Below are positions 33,178 through 51,748 of a stretch of DNA of 64,000 bases, one piece after another; position 1 is the first letter of the stretch, and the number at the start of each line of letters is the position of its first letter. Below the pieces are notes generated by a model. It did no database searches. It was not told the DNA's origin and saw only the letters and a program-made list of their open reading frames with translations. Source of the stretch: Rhizobium etli CFN 42. Its GTDB lineage: Bacteria; Pseudomonadota; Alphaproteobacteria; Rhizobiales; Rhizobiaceae. The stretch lies in the NCBI RefSeq assembly GCF_000092045.1, contig NC_007762.1, positions 124,001 through 188,000 of the forward strand, read 5' to 3'. A program made the translations under genes and the position numbers.

Positions 33178-33743
33178 GGTCCGACGCCATGCCGGACCTC
33201 CGTCCGCTCTGGTTTTGGAAGCGCTGCAGCATTCACATAGCTGCAGTGCACAAAAAGTGTTTTCCAAGTGGTCAAAAATCAAGCATAACGCACACAGCTG
33301 ATGCACATGGCGGCTTTCCTCCCAGTTCCGCCGCAGCAGCTGTTCCCCTCTGGAGGTTTATTGACCTTCACACTTCATGGGCCGCGGTTTCCGCTGGCCC
33401 ATTTTTTTATCTCCCATCTTATCCCGATCGATATCCAGTCGCGTGCAAGCCGACGCTTCAGCCGCCGAAATGAGAGGCAAGCAGGGGAGAGAAGAAGGAA
33501 GAGGGAGATGAACCGGTCGCAGAGCAGTCCGCCGGTCGCCGCTGACGCTCAACCGCCGCCTCCGCATCCCGGCCACTCGTCCTTCGCAGGGCTGTCAGAC
33601 CCGCTCGTCCTTCGTGGCAGCAATGCTCGGCCGCAGTTGCACCCGACCGCCCGCTCCGCGGTCCGGGAATTGTCTTCGAAAAGAATGAAGACGCGAGAAG
33701 GGCCGGCAGAGGGCCGTGTCCAATCCCCGAGAAGGAGTATCCC
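33178..33743. other. Gap with a terminator, before the parB-like gene
   Basis: 566 bases with no supportable gene. It contains the hairpin at 33377-33408. A smaller inverted repeat (GTCTTC..GAAGAC) lies about 70 bases before the parB-like start. Confidence 0.5.
33377..33408 (+). terminator. Rho-independent terminator
   Basis: ATGGGCC (33377-33383) pairs with GGCCCAT (33396-33402), with an inner GCGG/CCGC extension, followed by a run of seven T. It ends transcription about 200 bases after the helicase gene. Confidence 0.8.
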
Positions 33744-37772: not shown

Positions 37773-38027
37773 ATGATCCCTACCCTGCCGGATCGCCCTT
37801 CGGTTTTGCTGCGGTCTGAACCGGCGGCCGTGCGCTTCAAGGCCGCTGTCGCGCCGCGGGGCGGCCGGACCCCGCCGTCCTTCGCGGAGCAGGCTCGCGT
37901 GCTCTATCGAGGGCAGTGTGCCCTCTTCGCCCGCAAACCGGCTCCGCTCGTCCAGGCAGGGCCGGACCCTGAAACGCCCGTCTTCCGCCGGAGCGGGGCG
38001 ACCGCACCGAAGGGCAAGCCGGCATGA
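37773..38027 (+). CDS. Doubtful small ORF
   Basis: 84 codons, Pro/Arg/Ala-rich (VLLRSEPAAVRFKAAVAP, FRRSGATAPKGKPA), with only a weak ribosome-binding sequence (GAGGACGTC). Its stop overlaps an in-frame ATG of the next ORF as ATGA, which is the main argument for it. Otherwise it could be a chance frame in high-GC DNA. Confidence 0.3.
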   Translation: MIPTLPDRPSVLLRSEPAAVRFKAAVAPRGGRTPPSFAEQARVLYRGQCALFARKPAPLVQAGPDPETPVFRRSGATAPKGKPA

Positions 38028-38733: not shown

Positions 38734-38837
38734 TGTCGCTGACACGGTCAATCGGGAACGGAAATCAGGCAATCGCCCGTAGCGGCCCGTTCCGCTTGTC
38801 GGGTCTGCAGGAGCCACCGGCAGATGCAACGGCTTCG

Positions 38838-38931
38838 CCGTCCTCCACTTCGTTACGGCCGTTCCGGTGCATCCGCCGGCTGACTTGCTTCTGCTTTCGC
38901 CCCTCCGTAACGGGCCGCGATGGGCGCGGCC
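38838..38931 (+). promoter_or_regulatory. Structured leader of ardC
   Basis: Begins with CGTCCTCCACTTCGTTACGG, a block shared with the leaders at 40391 and 42400. CGTTACGG pairs with CCGTAACG (about 60 bases on). The leader ends with the hairpin GGCCGCG-ATGGG-CGCGGCC (38913-38931), which recurs exactly at 40495-40513. The ardC ATG is 20 bases further. Either an RNA leader or a DNA-hairpin promoter. Confidence 0.55.
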
Positions 38932-38951
38932 TCAAAACCGGAGGCTTGAAG

Positions 38952-39875
38952 ATGAGCAATACTGAGAAACAACGGGGCGATCTCTATACCCGCATCACTG
39001 ACAGAATCGTTGAGGATCTGGCGAAGGGCGTGCGGCCGTGGATGAAGCCATGGAACGCCGAGAACACGACCGGCCGTATTACCCGGCCGCTGCGTCATAA
39101 CGGGCAGCCATATTCGGGCGTCAACGTGCTGCTTCTCTGGTCGGAGGGCAACGCCCGGGGATATGAGTCATCTACGTGGATGACGTTCAAGCAGGCCCTC
39201 GAACTGGGTGCTGCCGTCCGCAAGGGCGAGACGGGTGCCATGGTCGTCTTCGCCAGCCGGTTCACCAAGTCCGAAACCGATGGAAATGGCGGCGAGGTCG
39301 AGCGGGAGATTCCTTTCCTGAAAGCCTACAGTGTCTTCAACGTCGAACAGATCGATGGCCTCCCCGACCAATATTATCACCGGCCGGCACTTGGTCCGGA
39401 TCCGATCAAGCGCATCGAGGATGCCGACCGGTTCTTTCGCAACACTGGTGCCGTGATCCGCCACGGTGGCAACCAGGCCTTCTACGCGCCGGCCGCCGAC
39501 ATCATCCAGATGCCGCCGTTTGAGAGCTTCAAGGATGCGGCAAGCTATTACGCGACCTTGAGTCATGAAGTCACCCATTGGACGGCGCCGGCGCATCGCC
39601 TCGGCCGCGATCTCAGCCGCTATGCCAAGGACAAATCCGAGCGGGCGCGAGAGGAACTGATTGCTGAACTCGGCAGCTGCTTCCTGTGCGCCGATCTCGG
39701 CATTGTTCCCGAGGTCGAGCCCCGCCCCGATCACGCCTCGTACGTCGGCTCCTGGCTCAAGGTCCTCAGCGACGACAGGCGGGCTCTCTTTCAGGCGGCG
39801 GCGCATGCGCAGCGGGCCGTAAGTTTCCTGCATGGCCTACAGCCCGAACGTGCTGACGACCGGCTCGCTGCCTGA
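38952..39875 (+). CDS. ardC: ArdC antirestriction protein
   Basis: 307 aa from ATG 38952 (GGAGG upstream). An N-terminal ssDNA-binding domain (DLYTRITDRIVEDLAKGVR, PWNAENTTGRITRPLRHNG, LLLWSEGNARGYESSTWMT) precedes a metallopeptidase-like domain with YATLSHEVTHWTAPAHRLG (HExxH, about residue 205) and ELIAELGSCFL (third ligand). ArdC proteins protect incoming conjugative DNA against restriction by binding single strands. It has a structured leader and lies on the inferred leading side of oriT, where such genes are expected. Confidence 0.92.
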   Translation: MSNTEKQRGDLYTRITDRIVEDLAKGVRPWMKPWNAENTTGRITRPLRHNGQPYSGVNVLLLWSEGNARGYESSTWMTFKQALELGAAVRKGETGAMVVFASRFTKSETDGNGGEVEREIPFLKAYSVFNVEQIDGLPDQYYHRPALGPDPIKRIEDADRFFRNTGAVIRHGGNQAFYAPAADIIQMPPFESFKDAASYYATLSHEVTHWTAPAHRLGRDLSRYAKDKSERAREELIAELGSCFLCADLGIVPEVEPRPDHASYVGSWLKVLSDDRRALFQAAAHAQRAVSFLHGLQPERADDRLAA

Positions 39876-39880
39876 GGACT

Positions 39881-40057
39881 TTAGCGTCGGTCGCTGGTCT
39901 CGTCAGCGGCCGGCACCTGTTCGGGCTTCAACGCGGAGAGCGTGTCAGGATCAGCCGTAAGGTCCAGCTTGCCCCAGATCGAGGTTTTCCGGTCGGTCGG
40001 CTTGAGCTTCCGGGACGGCTTGATTTCGACGACAAACGGCTTTGGCTGCTGACGCAT
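39881..40057 (-). CDS. Small conserved hypothetical protein
   Basis: 58 aa on the opposite strand, ATG 40057 with TGGAGGAT 4 bases before. It reads MRQQPKPFVVEIKPSRKLK, then KTSIWGKLDLTADPDTL and ends EQVPAADETSDRR. Conserved in style with other rhizobial plasmid small proteins. Convergent with ardC, 5 bases apart. Function unknown. Confidence 0.6.
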   Translation of the reverse strand: MRQQPKPFVVEIKPSRKLKPTDRKTSIWGKLDLTADPDTLSALKPEQVPAADETSDRR

Positions 40058-40326
40058 AGATCCTCCAGGCGACGATTCGCGAGCACGACGATAGCCCGAA
40101 GAGCGGCCAACGCAACGCCCTTGTTCGGCGATGCCCGGACGTTTGATTTTGACATGTGGACAGGGCGGCGGATCCCCCGTCGCAGGGATCCGGCAGGCAG
40201 TCGGGGAGTGGCTGCCATCGACATATTCCCTTGGCGGCTCAGCCAGGCCCGTCCTTCGCGGGCTCGATGAGGCATGTCTGACCGGAGAACGGCTTCGCCT
40301 CGATCGTCCTCCCGCAACGGCCATGC

Positions 40327-40513
40327 GAAACTTTCTTCCCCTGGCGGCGGCGCCGCCATTCCTCGCGCGGCAACAAAGTTTCTCTTGGCCGCCCTCCATT
40401 TCATTCCGGCCCTACGAGCCACCCCATTGCGCAGGCGCAACGGGGACCCCGGGGGTGCGGGCCGATCGTCCCCGATCCTTGCGACAGCCATCGAGGCCGC
40501 GATGGGCGCGGCC
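40327..40513 (+). promoter_or_regulatory. Structured leader of the DUF736 gene
   Basis: An 8-bp stem GAAACTTT (40327-40334) / AAAGTTTC (40375-40382) encloses a CCCC-GGCGGCG-CGCC region. It is followed by the shared block CCCTCCATTTCATTCCGGCC (40391-40411) and the hairpin GGCCGCG-ATGGG-CGCGGCC (40495-40513) 24 bases before the ATG. The same layout with a different but still complementary stem occurs at 42342-42386. Confidence 0.55.
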
Positions 40514-40537
40514 CGAAACGGCAAAAGGAATACGACA

Positions 40538-40846
40538 ATGGCAACCATCGGCACCTTCACCTCCACCGAAACCGGCTTCAACGGCTCGATCCGCACGCTC
40601 GCCCTCAACGTCAAGGCCCGCATCGCCCGCATCGAGAACCCCTCCGACAAGGGTCCGCACTACCGCATCTACGCCGGCAATGTCGAGCTGGGCGCGGCCT
40701 GGCAGAAGCGCTCCGAGCAGGATCGCGACTATCTCTCGGTCAAGCTCGACGACCCGAGCTTCCCCGCTCCGATCTACGCGACGCTCACCGAGGTCGAGGG
40801 CGAGGACGGCTACCAGCTGATCTGGTCCCGCCCCAACCGGGACTGA
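40538..40846 (+). CDS. DUF736 domain protein
   Basis: 102 aa from ATG 40538 (AAAGGAA upstream). It reads [19 protein letters not shown], then [38 protein letters not shown] and [15 protein letters not shown]736 proteins are very common on alpha-proteobacterial plasmids, often near transfer genes, and their function is not known. Followed by a strong terminator. Confidence 0.9.
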
Positions 40847-40896
40847 GGCCCCGGACGGCCCCGCCACCGAGGCGGGGCCAACCGGCCACAAAGACA

Positions 40897-40933
40897 AGCA
40901 GGCGGCAGGCATCGAGCCTGCCGCCTGCTTTTT
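40897..40933 (+). terminator. Rho-independent terminator after DUF736
   Basis: AGCAGGCGGCAGGC (40897-40910) pairs with GCCTGCCGCCTGCT (40916-40929), a perfect 14-bp stem with a 5-base loop, followed by TTTTTC. Confidence 0.9.
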
Positions 40934-41000
40934 CGGTGCGATGCGGAACCGGAATATGTCTGCTCAGTGGATGCTATCGTGCCGGGAGGAAATGCCGGCC

Positions 41001-41113
41001 TCAAGGACGAGCGGTTCCCCCAATTTAGCCTCCGCTCCGGTTCCCTCCGCTCCAACAAAATCGGCTCCCCCCACTCGCCGGCTCCGCCGGTCGCTTGTGC
41101 GCTCCTTGACCCC
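41001..41113 (+). promoter_or_regulatory. Leader repeat A (structured)
   Basis: About 110 bases closed by TCAAGG-(Acg)-AGCG at the 5' side and CGCTCCTTGA at the 3' side. Inside are CCCCCAATTT and AAAATCGGCTCCCCC. A second copy sits at 41512-41620. Each ends 55-60 bases before the ATG of a small gene. Confidence 0.6.
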
Positions 41114-41168
41114 GCCACCTCTTCCCGCCCCGCCGTCTCGTCTTTCACGAACTCAAGGAGATGAGACG

Positions 41169-41333
41169 ATGACCATCGAACAGCACATCGAGGAACTGCG
41201 GGCCGAGTTGAGGAACGCCTGCGACGCCGCCGAGCGGCGCCAGATCGAAGCGGAGCTTCAGCTCGCCCAGGCCGACCTGACCGTGGCGCTTGCCGAACAG
41301 GACGGCACCATCGAAGCCGAGCCGCCTTTCTGA
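41169..41333 (+). CDS. Small acidic helical protein
   Basis: 54 aa from ATG 41169 (AAGGAG 8 bases upstream). MTIEQHIEELRAELRNACD, AAERRQIEAELQLAQADL, ending EAEPPF. One long coiled-coil-like helix. The strong ribosome site and structured leader argue that it is real. Role unknown. Confidence 0.65.
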   Translation: MTIEQHIEELRAELRNACDAAERRQIEAELQLAQADLTVALAEQDGTIEAEPPF

Positions 41334-41511
41334 GGCGGCTCTCATTCTGCTGGATCATGAGCCGGTCCGCCGGATCGACCGGCCTCCCGGCTGTCAGGGG
41401 TTTCACCCCCTCGACAATCTTGCCGGCTCGCGCCGGATACGGTCACGTCCCCTCCAGGGCCGTGGGTCTCTTCTCTCTCTGACGTCCCATGGTACTCCAG
41501 CAAATCCGGCG

Positions 41512-41620
41512 TCAAGGACGGCGCGGTCTCCCCCAATTTTTCCGCCGCTGCGTTGCACTTCGCTTCCCGAAAAAATCGGTTCCCCCGCTTGCGAGCCGCG
41601 TTCCGCGCTCCTTGACCCCT
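41512..41620 (+). promoter_or_regulatory. Leader repeat B (structured)
   Basis: Second copy of the element at 41001. The closing stem is TCAAGGA-(cg)-GCGCGG with CCGCGCTCCTTGA, different in its inner pairs from copy A but still complementary. Inside, CCCCCAATTTTT faces AAAAAATCGG. It ends 55 bases before the ATG at 41670. Confidence 0.6.
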
Positions 41621-41669
41621 CTTTGCCACGGAGTGGCCGATCTCCGTCATCAACGAAGGAGATCACATC

Positions 41670-42161
41670 ATGACAACCAATCAGAACCTCATGCTTTACA
41701 CCAAGCTTGCCGGCTTCCGGCTCGTCGTCCTCGCAAACCGCTTCGGCTGCGACAGCGAATTCTCGCGAGCCCTCCACGATCGCCTGCTCGAAGGACTGGA
41801 GGCAGCAATTGGGCGCGCGCGGATTATCATGGCGCTGGAGCGCAGCGTTCTCATCGGAGACGACGAGTTCGCGGAGTATCGGCTTGAGGGTGAGGCTGAG
41901 ATCTTCGGGCGCTTCACCATCAACCTGATGGATGAGCTCGACATCGATTTCGACACGCACGAATTCCGCATCAACGGCGGCGATTGGTCCAGCGCTTTGA
42001 CGGCGGACTATACCGGCGTCGACATCGACTATCCGGAGCTGATTGCGCTCACCGACGCCGAACTCGGCTCACTTGCGCCGATCGTCAAGGATATCACACG
42101 CGAAACCGGTATCGCGGTAAGGGCCTCCAGTGTCAGCTACATCAGGTGCACAGGATCGTAA
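41670..42161 (+). CDS. Conserved hypothetical protein
   Basis: 163 aa from ATG 41670 (GAAGGAG upstream). It reads LAGFRLVVLANRFGCDSEF, RALHDRLLEGLEAAIGRAR, then GRFTINLMDELDIDFDTHE and a C-terminal region VSYIRCTGS. Acidic, soluble. Preceded by leader repeat B. Family unknown to me. Confidence 0.65.
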   Translation: MTTNQNLMLYTKLAGFRLVVLANRFGCDSEFSRALHDRLLEGLEAAIGRARIIMALERSVLIGDDEFAEYRLEGEAEIFGRFTINLMDELDIDFDTHEFRINGGDWSSALTADYTGVDIDYPELIALTDAELGSLAPIVKDITRETGIAVRASSVSYIRCTGS

Positions 42162-42341
42162 TCAATCCTGCGGCGGGCTCGACCATCCGGAGGGCGGCGA
42201 CAGCGGCCCTTCGTTGAGATGCCTGCGAGACCATCGCAATGATGGCGAGAACGGCCAGTTGAGCCTCTTCCTTTCGACCTGCTGTCATCTGTTATCGGGG
42301 ATGTTGCAGCCCGTTCGTCGGGACGCAACCTGCCGGCAACA

Positions 42342-42436
42342 GAATTTTCCCCGCCGCCTTCTGCGGCTCCTCGCCGATCAAAATTCAGCCGCCGCCAGGT
42401 CCTCCACATTCGTTTCGGCCTTGTCAGGTGCATCCC
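42342..42436 (+). promoter_or_regulatory. Structured leader of the 57-aa gene
   Basis: Stem GAATTTT (42342-42348) / AAAATTC (42380-42386) enclosing CCCCGCCGCC..TGCGGC. It is followed by GTCCTCCACATTCGTTTCGG and GGTGCATCC, both shared with the ardC leader (38840-38872). Confidence 0.5.
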
Positions 42437-42493
42437 TCCTTTCCGGTCTGCGCTCTCACCCCGCGATGACCGCAATTCGAAAGGAGATCCATC

Positions 42494-42667
42494 ATGCAAC
42501 AACTCGCTCAATTCCTCGCATCTACCGGCCGCCGGCTCCGCACTCTCGGCAAGGTGATCAGCCACTTCTTCCGCAAGGGAAAGCTCGGCCTGAAACTCGC
42601 GATCAAGATCCCGTTCTTCGTCGAGATCGAAGTGTCCTTCGAGACCGATTGGAACCGGCGCCGATGA
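42494..42667 (+). CDS. Small basic protein with a hydrophobic stretch
   Basis: 57 aa from ATG 42494 (AAAGGAG 7 bases upstream). MQQLAQFLASTGRRLRTLG, ISHFFRKGKLGLKLAIKIP, then FFVEIEVSFETDWNRRR. Basic and amphipathic, possibly membrane- or nucleic-acid-associated. Last + strand gene before the convergent WGR gene. Confidence 0.6.
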   Translation: MQQLAQFLASTGRRLRTLGKVISHFFRKGKLGLKLAIKIPFFVEIEVSFETDWNRRR

Positions 42668-46610: not shown

Positions 46611-46650
46611 AGGGCGCAATTATACGTCGCTGGCGCGACGCCCTGCTTTT
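46611..46650. other. oriT: oriT, Ti/RSF1010 (MOBQ) type
   Basis: AGGGCGCAATTATACG followed by the perfect inverted repeat CGTCGC-TGGC-GCGACG (46625-46640). Read on the - strand this gives the repeat, then TATAATTGCGCCCT, which matches the RSF1010/pTi nick region. By analogy the nick falls near GCGCC/CT on the - strand at about 46612. The 5' end then leads toward lower coordinates (traC, traD, traG, then the ardC block). Confidence 0.88.
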
Positions 46651-46720: not shown

Positions 46721-49700
46721 GTGGCCGTCCCCCATTTCTCCGTCAGCGTCGTCGCTCGTGGCTCCGGCCGCAGCGCCGTGCTGTCGGCGGCCTACCGCCA
46801 CTGCGCCAAGATGGAGTTCGAGCGTGAGGCCCGCACGATCGACTACACCCGCAAGCAGGGATTGCTCCACGAAGAGTTCGTAATCCCCGCCGATGCCCCG
46901 GACTGGCTGCGCTCGATGATCGCAGATCGTTCGGTTTCCGGTGCCTCCGAGGCTTTCTGGAACAAGGTCGAAGGTTTCGAGAAGCGCTCCGACGCGCAGC
47001 TCGCCAAGGATGTGACGATCGCCCTGCCGATCGAGCTGACCGCCGAGCAGAACATTGCGCTGGTGCGGGATTTCGTCGAGCAGCACATCACGGCGAACGG
47101 CATGGTAGCGGACTGGGTCTATCACGACGCGCCCGGCAACCCGCATGTTCATCTGATGACGACCTTGCGGCCGCTGACTGCGGACGGATTTGGTGCCAAG
47201 AAGGTAGCGGTAACAGGACCGGACGGCAATCCGATCCGCAACGACGCCGGCAAGATCGTCTATGAACTCTGGGCCGGAAGCATCGATGATTTCAATGCGT
47301 TCCGCGACGGATGGTTTGCCTGTCAGAACCGGCACCTGGCGCTTGCGGGTCTCGACATTCGCGTCGATGGCCGATCCTTTGAGAAGCAAGGGATCGATCT
47401 CGAGCCGACCATCCATCTCGGCGTTGGCACGAAGGCGATCGAGCGGAAATCCGATGGTGCGCCCAAGCCCATTGAGCTCGAACGCCTCGAATTGCAGAAC
47501 GCCAGGCGGAGCGAAAACGTCAGGCGCATCGACAGGAATCCTGAACTCGTCCTCGACCTGATCATGCGTGAGAAGAGCGTCTTTGATGAACGGGACGTGG
47601 CTAAGATCCTGCACCGCTACGTCGACGACGCAGTGCTGTTCCAAAGCCTCATGGTTCGGATCCTGCTCTGCCCCGAAACCTTCCGCATCGAGCGCGAACG
47701 GGTCGACCTTGCCAGCGGTACCCGCGAGCCGGCCAAGTACACGACCCGCGACATGATCCGGCTCGAAGCGGAGATGGCCAATCGTGCCGTCTGGCTGTCG
47801 CAGCGATCGTCGCATGGCGTGCGTGACACAGTGCTTGCCGCGACTTTCGAGCGTCATGAGCGTCTGTCGGACGAGCAGAAAACCGCGATCGAGCATGTGG
47901 CGGGAACTGAGCGGATCGCGGCCGTGATCGGCCGCGCCGGCGCCGGCAAAACGACGATGATGAAGGCGGCGCGTGAGGCCTGGGAAGCGGCCGGCTATCG
48001 GGTCGTCGGCGCAGCACTTGCCGGCAAGGCGGCCGAGGGACTGGAGAAGGAAGCGGGCATCATCTCTCGCACACTTGCGTCGTGGGAGCTCCGCTGGAAC
48101 CAAGGCCGTGATCAGCTCGATAGCAAGACGGTGTTCGTTCTCGACGAGGCGGGCATGGTGTCGTCGCGGCAGATGGCGCTGTTCGTCGAAGCAGTGACGA
48201 AAGCCGGCGCCAAGCTCGTCCTCGTCGGCGATCCCGAACAGCTTCAACCGATCGAAGCGGGTGCCGCCTTCCGCGCCATCGCCGATCGCATCGGCTATGC
48301 CGAACTCGAAACCATCTATCGCCAGCGCCAGCAATGGATGCGCGATGCCTCACTTGATCTGGCGCGCGGCAAGGTCGGCAAGGCGATCGATGCTTACCGC
48401 GCCAATGGCAGGGTCATCGGGTCGGATCTCAAAGCCGAGGCCGTCGACAACCTGATCGCGGCCTGGGACCGCGATTACGATCCGACGAAGACGTCGCTGA
48501 TCCTTGCTCATCTGCGCCGCGACGTGCGCATGCTAAACCAGATGGCGCGCATCAAACTGATCGAACGCGGGATCCTTGGTGAGGGATCCATGTTCAAGAC
48601 GGCCGATGGCAGCCGCAATTTTGCCGTCGGCGACCAGATCGTGTTCCTGAAGAACGAGGGATCACTGGGCGTCAAAAACGGCATGCTGGCCAAGGTCGTC
48701 GAGGCGGGACCGGGACGGATCATCGCGCTGATCGGCGATGGCGAGAATGCCCGAAAAGTGCTGGTCGAACAGCGCTTCTACGACAACCTCGATCACGGCT
48801 ATGCCACGACCATCCACAAGAGCCAGGGCGCCACCGTCGACCAGGTCAAAGTGCTCGCCTCCCTTTCGCTGGACCGTCATCTCACCTATGTCGCCATGAC
48901 GCGTCATCGTGAGGACCTGGCTGTTTATTACGGCCGCAGATCCTTCGCCAAGAACGGTGGGTTGATCCCGATCCTGTCGCGAAGGAATGCGAAGGAAACG
49001 ACGCTCGATTACGAAAAGAGCGCCTTCTATCGCGCAGCGCTTCGTTTTGCCGAAACCCGCGGTCTGCATCTTGTGAATGTCGCCCGAACCCTGGTTCGCG
49101 ACCGGCTGGAATGGGTCGTCAGTCAGAAGCAAAAGCTTGCCAATCTAGGCGCCCGCCTTGCGGCCGTTGCCGACAGGCTCCGGCTCGTCCGCGGCGTTGC
49201 GCAGTCCCCAATCCAAAACAGCAACAAGGAGGCAAAGCCGATGGTCTCGGGCATCACAACCTTCGCCAAATCGGTCGACCAGGCGATCGAGGACAAGGTC
49301 GCCGCCGATCCGGGTTTGAAGAAGCAATGGGAGGAGGTCTCGGCCCGCTTCCATCTCGTTTACGCACAGGCGGAAAGCGCATTCAAGGCCGTCAATGTCG
49401 ACGCCATGCTGAAGAACGAGACCGTTGCGAAATCCACGTTGACCAAGCTCGGGTCGGAGCCCGAAAGCTTCGGCGCGCTCAAGGGCAAGACCGGGATCCT
49501 CGCCAGCCGCTCTGACAAGCAGGAGCGAGAAAAGGCACAAACGAATGCGCCGGCGCTGGCCCGAAATTTGGAGCGCTATCTGCGCCAGCGGGCGGAGGCG
49601 GAACGTAAGTTCGAGGTCGAAGAACGCGCTGTCCGTCTGAAGGTCTCGATCGATATTCCCGCGCTGTCGCCAAACGCAAAACAGACATTGGAACGCGTTC

Positions 49701-50595: not shown

Positions 50596-51748
50596 GTATC
50601 TCCAGCCAACCGCATTGATTGCCGTCGCAACCGTCGCCGGGACGGTGGGATGGAGTGGCCACGTCCTGCTTCTTCCGGTCGCCCTCGCGTTTCCGGTTCT
50701 CTGGGCGCTTGCGCGAGCACGGTGGACGGCCGCGGTCATCTCGGCCGTCTATTTCCTGACCGCATCCCGGGGACTGCCGCAGGGCGCCGCGACCTTCTAT
50801 TCCTCGGACCTTTGGCCTGGATTATTGCTGTGGCTCTGTGCGTCCGCCGGCTTCGTCATCGTGCATACCGTCCTCTGGACGAAGAGGACGGGTGCTCGTC
50901 CGCGTCGCTATCTCCTGGCAGCGGTTCTGATGGCCGTTCCGCCATTCGGCATTGCCGGCTGGGCTCATCCGATCACCGCTGCAGGCGTACTATTTCCAGG
51001 ATGGGGATGGTGGGGACTGGCTGCCGCGACAGCCGGCCTCATGGGCCTCGTAACCCGCATGTGGCCAGCTGTCGCGTTTGTCCTGGCAAGCTTTTGGATC
51101 TGGTCCGCCGCAACCTGGGACGAACCGAACCCACCGGAATCCTGGCAGGGGATCGACCTCGAAATGGGTGCGTCGCTGGGGCGGGATGCCAGCATTGAGC
51201 GTCACCGTGATCTGATTGCCACGGTGACGGATCGGGCATCCGGTGGCGCCCGGTCCATTGTTCTTCCCGAAAGCTCTCTTGGCTTCTGGACGCCGACCGT
51301 CAAGCGGCTATGGGTGCGAGCTTTGCAGGCAACTGACGCCACCGTTATCGCCGGCGCGGCAGTTGTCGATGCGGGCGGATACGACAATGTTCTGATCGCC
51401 ATCTCTGGCGACGCCGCTCGGCTCCTTTATCGCGAACGTATGCCGGTGCCAGGCTCGATGTGGCAACCTTGGCGTCCCTTGCTTGGGGCAAGTGGCGGCG
51501 CGCGGGCGCACTTCTTTTCGAACCCCGTCGTGACCGTTGCCGGCGGACGCATCGCACCGCTGATCTGCTACGAGCAGCTGATCGTCTGGCCCGTTCTGCA
51601 GTCTATGCTGCAGGAGCCGGATATCCTCGTCGCTGTCGGCAACGGCTGGTGGACCAAGGGGACATCCATCGTCGCCATCCAGCGCGCCAGCACGCAAGCC
51701 TGGGCGCGCCTGTTCGACAAGTCCGTCGTTTTTTCCTTTAACATCTGA
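50585..51748 (+). CDS. traB: TraB conjugation protein (CN-hydrolase type)
   Basis: 387 aa from ATG 50585, overlapping traF. About six N-terminal membrane helices, then a nitrilase-like domain: [14 protein letters not shown] (Glu), a Lys further on and [14 protein letters not shown] (Cys), as in Lnt-type enzymes. TraB improves Ti plasmid transfer; its chemistry is not known. Ends KSVVFSFNI. Confidence 0.92.

Follow-up and report, generated by a model that had tools for sequence, protein, structure and literature searches.

Two families of structured leaders as candidate single-strand start signals in the putative leading region of a Rhizobium etli plasmid

Background

Single-strand promoters are established in plasmid F and related plasmids (excerpts of PMC9849209 and PMC11541004), and the activity of one of them, Frpo, has been demonstrated in vivo according to the excerpts of PMC9849209. 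The promoter of the phage N4 virion RNA polymerase is likewise a template-strand DNA hairpin, with a 3-nucleotide (nt) loop that contains a sheared G:A pair and a structure unperturbed by single-stranded-DNA-binding protein (excerpts of PMC4496689). Among small DNA hairpins, extraordinary stability is described for GNA and GNNA mini-hairpins whose stems are G-C (excerpts of PMC4686876), and GNNA and GNAB tetraloops are also described as stable in DNA (excerpts of PMC8373063). Here we analyze five structured leaders in a stretch of 64,000 nt from Rhizobium etli CFN 42 (NC_007762.1, positions 124,001 to 188,000), which we call the window and which is part of a Rhizobium plasmid (contig 3). Comparison with homologous leaders suggests that these elements are probably hairpins of the transferred (minus) strand acting as single-strand start signals for leading-region genes.

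An earlier note on this DNA treated the five leaders as one family. They fall instead into two element families, type A with two leaders (before genes of 54 and 163 amino acids, aa) and type B with three (before a 57-aa gene, a DUF736 gene and an ardC-like gene). As with Frpo and ssi in the excerpts of PMC9849209 and PMC11541004, the elements would stand upstream of leading-region genes, given our assignment of the transferred strand, and are predicted to fold on the template strand. Repeats of plasmid F show the same strand bias by a like statistic. Unlike Frpo, the elements rebuild no -35/-10 pair above chance, and they form two compact, sequence-unrelated families with one element per gene for these five genes. 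Phage N4 is a precedent for a polymerase that reads a small template-strand DNA hairpin, but it relies on its own T7-like polymerase (excerpts of PMC4496689), and the elements described here are much longer. Most type B cores and seven of the eight shortest type A copies resemble the GNA/GNNA and GNAB hairpins, which appear in the excerpts of PMC4686876 and PMC8373063 as in vitro DNA motifs and not as a family of genetic elements; some type B stems, unlike these, hold A-T pairs. No such elements in rhizobial plasmids were found among the literature matches listed, which is not proof of absence.

Results and Discussion

The two type A elements lie at 41001..41109 before the 54-aa gene and at 41512..41615 before the 163-aa gene, each with the minus strand as the predicted folding strand and with limits set by the closing arms. 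Model R1 matches only these two copies within the window. Both copies are closed by TCAAGGA/TCCTTGA, and the start codons at 41169 and 41670 follow after 59 and 54 nt, which bears out the 110-base repeats that had been proposed here. Written on the gene strand, the shared plan comprises these outer arms, a middle stem (for example CGAGTGG/CCACTCG), runs of pyrimidines, and the stem CCAATTTT/AAAATCGG, whose apical part varies; the right arm also carries a small hairpin. Whole stems are replaced in some copies (AAATTC/GAATTT; TCCATGA/TCATGGA). A first pattern search of the fetched loci recovered 65 distinct type A stretches, and a refined search gave 87 distinct matches, 86 of them usable, from which 78 clean distinct copies were kept after six false and two truncated rows had been dropped. 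The finder requires pairable arms and a pairable stem, so that a high level of pairing is partly built in, and it treats A.C and G.T equally.

The distance from the end of the type A element to the start codon is 50-61 nt in 76 of the 78 copies, with a ribosome-site-like stretch; one copy has 81 nt, and one (locus L006) lacks a start codon. This near-fixed distance, the single element per gene and the template-strand fold suit a single-strand promoter, and judged by the spacing a promoter function is likely. The hairpins might instead be start sites for the complementary strand (ssi/primosome or primase) on the incoming strand. Such sites would also need a fold of the transferred strand, and the title of Masai and Arai gives Frpo a dual role in transcription and primer synthesis. 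Priming requires neither the observed spacing nor one element per gene, and we consider this explanation rather unlikely.

Pairing in type A is conserved through covariation. The alignment (45 rows, three later dropped as false matches) contains 803 Watson-Crick cells compared to 705.9 +/- 6.0 in column shuffles, and none of 1000 shuffles reached the observed value. Mismatched cells carry information on the strand, as an A.C on the gene strand is a G.T on the opposite strand. Across 42 copies less than 90% alike and 21 defined pairs in gene-strand notation, we counted 758 Watson-Crick, 78 A.C, 7 G.T and 37 other cells. Half of the A.C cells (39 of 78) come from a near-constant A.C at the third stem pair, and without that pair the counts are 39 versus 7. 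Two other pairs alternate between A-T and A.C and between C-G, C.A and T-A, with zero G.T cells; such alternations are as expected if wobble intermediates formed on the minus strand. In one outer pair there are three G.T and no A.C.

Folding energies point to the same strand. The minus-strand fold is better in 32 of 32 type A representatives, with a mean strand-difference z score of -1.3 against shuffles, and z is lower on the minus strand in 27 (RNA parameters) or 29 (DNA parameters) of the 32. Consensus folding gave -15.0 on the minus versus -4.0 on the plus strand in one set, and -15.5 versus -1.9 in a set of 50 rows that still included the eight rows dropped later. The type A copies are modest by energy, with minus-strand z scores of -1.9 and -1.5 under DNA parameters. 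Among the eight clean copies no longer than 87 nt, seven have a minus-strand apical loop of the GNA or GNNA kind (GCAA, GACA, GATA, GTCA, GCCA, GAA and GCCA), and only the copy in L056 does not fit.

The pyrimidine runs of the type A internal loop (e.g., 41017-41021, with the right-hand run from about 41065) usually covary as direct repeats. They are mostly CCCCC/CCCCC or CCTCC/CCTCC and are not complements, with one copy of mixed T and C (L036). The third bases of the left and right runs are C/C in 32, T/T in 9 and C/G in 4 of the 45 rows, which include the three false ones. These paired changes might reflect homopurine G.G or A.A contacts on the minus strand or a single recognized sequence. 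The latter is what would be expected if the hairpins were binding sites of a protein, from the plasmid or the host, with a role in protecting, regulating or packaging the leading strand. The near-fixed start-codon spacing speaks against such a site, and the presence of type A on plasmids typed to three relaxase classes makes a single plasmid-specific protein less likely. A protein site is thus improbable, somewhat more so than priming.

Type B elements share the motif CCTCC-[7 or 8 nt]-TNCGGCC, in which the 7-8 nt form a mini-hairpin of a 2-base-pair stem and a loop. The pattern occurs in the window at only three blocks, at 38842-38860 (ardC), 40393-40412 (DUF736) and 42401-42420 (57-aa), in agreement with the shared block that had been noticed before these genes. 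In the 57-aa leader, the element at 42320..42436 (minus strand, from the consensus fold of 24 leaders by alifold) comprises a closing stem, the long stem GAATTTT/AAAATTC from 42342 and the mini-hairpin at 42406..42413, with the minus-strand loop GAAT of the GNAB type. In the DUF736 leader, the element at 40298..40469 (minus strand, limits set by eye) holds the stem GAAACTTT/AAAGTTTC from 40327, an inserted hairpin and the mini-hairpin at 40398..40404 with the minus-strand loop GAA. Both long stems are present as the earlier note had described them. Its suggestion that pairing is kept despite sequence change holds in the 57-aa homologues; for DUF736 it can be seen in the leaders, but the consensus fold does not score the stem as a helix. 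The ardC element at 38774..38926, assigned to neither strand, has its type B block inside a long stem, with the mini-hairpin at 38847..38853 again showing the minus-strand loop GAA.

The type B block is present in 87 of 100 leaders and was not found in 13. Both mini-stem pairs are intact in 74 of 81 distinct blocks (AC/GT 36, AT/AT 22, GC/GC 16). The minus-strand loops of these 74 comprise 38 GNA, 10 GNAB, 8 GNNA and 18 others, so that 56 fit the DNA motifs, by leader 23 of 25 for 57-aa, 29 of 40 for DUF736 and 4 of 9 for ardC. Over all 81 blocks, 61 minus-strand loops fit, including two of the three blocks that are misregistered, and no plus-strand loop is of the GNA, GNNA or GNAB kind. Leaders that could be aligned numbered 24 of 34 for 57-aa, 43 of 53 for DUF736 and 11 of 13 for ardC. 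Consensus folding of the 57-aa leader gave -25.3 on the minus versus -8.9 on the plus strand, and the leader itself (42315-42447, minus strand, DNA parameters) has a z score of -4.1. The DUF736 leader gave -18.7 versus -14.7. We consider a single-stranded minus-strand structure well supported by these comparisons for type A and the 57-aa leader and moderately supported for the DUF736 leader; for the long stems of ardC it is not supported.

Two controls were used for strand preference. Two plasmid F repeats, 88% identical and one of them upstream of ssb, were taken as Frpo from the description in the excerpts of PMC9849209; both have a strand-difference z score of -2.9, and their plus strands fold well too (z -4.1 and -4.3). 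The small RNA ar15 leans the opposite way, with 40 G.T and 16 A.C cells and a better sense fold in 23 of 30 copies, although these came from a structure-model search possibly favoring G.U. Fold energy alone was rejected as evidence because it does not set the leaders apart in a scan of 30-47 kilobases (kb). Three of the five leaders fall below a z score of -3.8 (windows at 38781, 41501 and 42301), as do other hairpins, but neither the first type A copy nor the DUF736 leader does. One of these scan candidates, a minus-biased hairpin at 37841, was dropped because it overlaps an open reading frame. Strand-difference z scores over whole 260-nt upstream windows are low (DUF736 -0.08, ardC -0.28, 163-aa -0.75, 54-aa -0.78, 57-aa -0.93), since the signal is diluted over such lengths.

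The genes occupy 38952-42667 on the plus strand. The ardC-like gene (38952..39875; ArdcN and MPTase-PolyVal domains) and the DUF736 gene (40541..40846) were assigned by Pfam. They are followed by three small genes from the list of open reading frames, of 54 aa (41169..41333; no confident family), 163 aa (41670..42161; no Pfam family) and 57 aa (42494..42667; no Pfam family). Above the five genes is a traG frame on the minus strand, and a traA frame starts at 46721 on the plus strand, with both names taken from annotated relatives such as L090. The RSF1010-like nick motif AAGGGCGCAATTATACG, found by pattern search at 46612..46626 and a putative origin of transfer (oriT), sits between a traC-like frame on the traG/traC side and traA. 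The strand cut at this motif is presumably the same as in RSF1010. In that case the minus strand would be the one transferred, its 5' end lying at 46.6 kb, and this would place the five genes in the leading region and make the transferred strand (T-strand) their template. This agrees with the rule that the relaxase is usually the last to enter (excerpts of PMC11541004). In all 28 listed loci that combine an element with traG or traA, several of which overlap, the element is on the strand of traA and opposite to traG. Where a nick-like motif was found between traG and traA (14 loci), its orientation is always the same; a fifteenth match, in L056, falls within the traA match.

Several points weigh against hairpins of the transferred strand acting as start signals. 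The fold margin of the DUF736 leader is small, the long stems of ardC (11 sequences) favor the plus strand (-59.7 versus -53.7 on the minus; A.C 12, G.T 28), and the ardC mini-hairpins match the DNA motifs in only 4 of 9 cases. The ar15 columns divide 5 to 6, although the cells favor G.T. The T-strand call depends on a nick motif with a presumed strand and on the rule for relaxases. No -35/-10 pair above shuffles was found in the double-stranded leaders or in the elements (42 copies), and sigma70 boxes inside the elements were rejected as a candidate feature. The best scores out of 12 are 6-9 for both double-stranded and shuffled leaders and 5-8 for hairpin arms, the last without a shuffle of their own. 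By this box test the elements are therefore not members of Frpo. A promoter-like site at 42214-42243, above the 57-aa element (one in 40850-42500 versus 0.3 in shuffles), means that the 57-aa gene may have a double-stranded promoter.

Two further explanations invoke RNA. Plus-strand mRNA leaders with a role in RNA regulation, the second option of the earlier note, would account for the ardC leaders with their excess of G.T and better plus-strand fold, and the long stem of ardC may form in RNA or be of a mixed kind. The excess of A.C over G.T in type A (78:7), 57-aa (32:13) and DUF736 (74:37) is opposed to such leaders. Rfam has no match at the leaders, with ar15 (33296-33406, plus strand) and Atu_Ti1 (51029-51121, minus strand) only elsewhere in the window; a further scan gave only two weak matches, inside genes and below gathering scores. 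A gene-strand RNA is hence disfavored for type A, 57-aa and, by a small margin, DUF736, and it is very improbable as an explanation of the elements overall. Minus-strand (antisense) small RNAs are harder to tell apart by pairing, as their G.U pairs would look identical, which also counts against a DNA interpretation. The mini-hairpin loops are mostly of the DNA-stable GNA or GNAB kind and not GNRA, the spacing tracks the sense start codon, and Rfam is again silent at the leaders. Antisense RNAs would accordingly be just as surprising as mRNA leaders. The single-stranded-DNA option of the earlier note has gained from the covariation, the pairing on the presumed T-strand, the DNA-type loops and the uniform orientation to traG and traA.

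Type A elements also occur on other plasmids. BLAST with two type A copies as queries retrieved 385 and 161 plasmid records, in sets that may overlap, mostly from Rhizobium, Agrobacterium and Sinorhizobium, with one from Novosphingobium (pLA4). The query stretch from the window itself has a 100%-identical match, in two pieces, in NZ_CP092434 of Rhizobium sp. K102. The relaxase classes of the carriers include MOBP, as in Aminobacter pUSP2, and MOBF, as in Novosphingobium pLA4, and in both plasmids the element and its neighbor genes lie on the same strand as the annotated mobC or mobF. A sequence-only genome search with R1 was positive in 16 of 397 genomes and is insensitive because nine candidates were scored per genome. 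The 54-aa protein occurs in 2 of 289 genomes of the class sample, its own genome included, and the other genome likewise shows a leader resembling type A (L189, judged by eye).

Some additional repeats were observed. A second block of DUF736, 54-aa and 163-aa genes is located on the same contig outside of the window (G000:C3:118785-123175, L002); it is 89% identical over the matched stretch and carries type A elements of its own. An orphan type A element at 1508-1610 of L006 (G000:C3:40003 region) precedes a very short frame, near recombinase- and transposase-like sequence as read by eye. Another conserved repeat in L020, L021, L023, L030 and L094 starts with TCCGTGAGCGGCGC (TCGGGGAGCGGCGG in L030) and holds GGCCGCAGGCCGGCTCGCCC or similar; in L020, L021 and L023 it and the type A element of that locus are on opposite strands. 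Shortly before the ardC and DUF736 start codons, 38913-38931 and 40495-40513 share the hairpin block GGCCGCGATGGGCGCGGCC.

Conclusions

We suggest that the plasmid would enter the recipient as single-stranded DNA, with leading-region genes arriving on their template strand. Each element could then fold on the incoming strand directly upstream of its gene, into a local duplex and small hairpins capped by stable DNA loops. The folded element might mark the start for the host RNA polymerase, and the gene would be transcribed ahead of second-strand synthesis. The identity of the transferred strand, the binding of RNA polymerase and the site where transcription starts are inferences. A broader and more tentative idea is a class of single-strand promoters without -35/-10 boxes, common to conjugative plasmids of Alphaproteobacteria whose relaxases are unrelated. 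In such a class, the host RNA polymerase or another factor might read the shape of the T-strand fold (GNA-capped mini-hairpins and a purine internal loop with G.G or A.A), with one element per early gene and silence in the double-stranded state. The comparison of A.C with G.T at covarying pairs, combined with the DNA loop type, would provide a general test to separate functional single-stranded DNA from RNA. If the start-signal interpretation is true, this sequence-unrelated class in rhizobial and other alphaproteobacterial plasmids would reveal by what means symbiosis and Ti-type plasmids switch on their first genes as they enter a cell.

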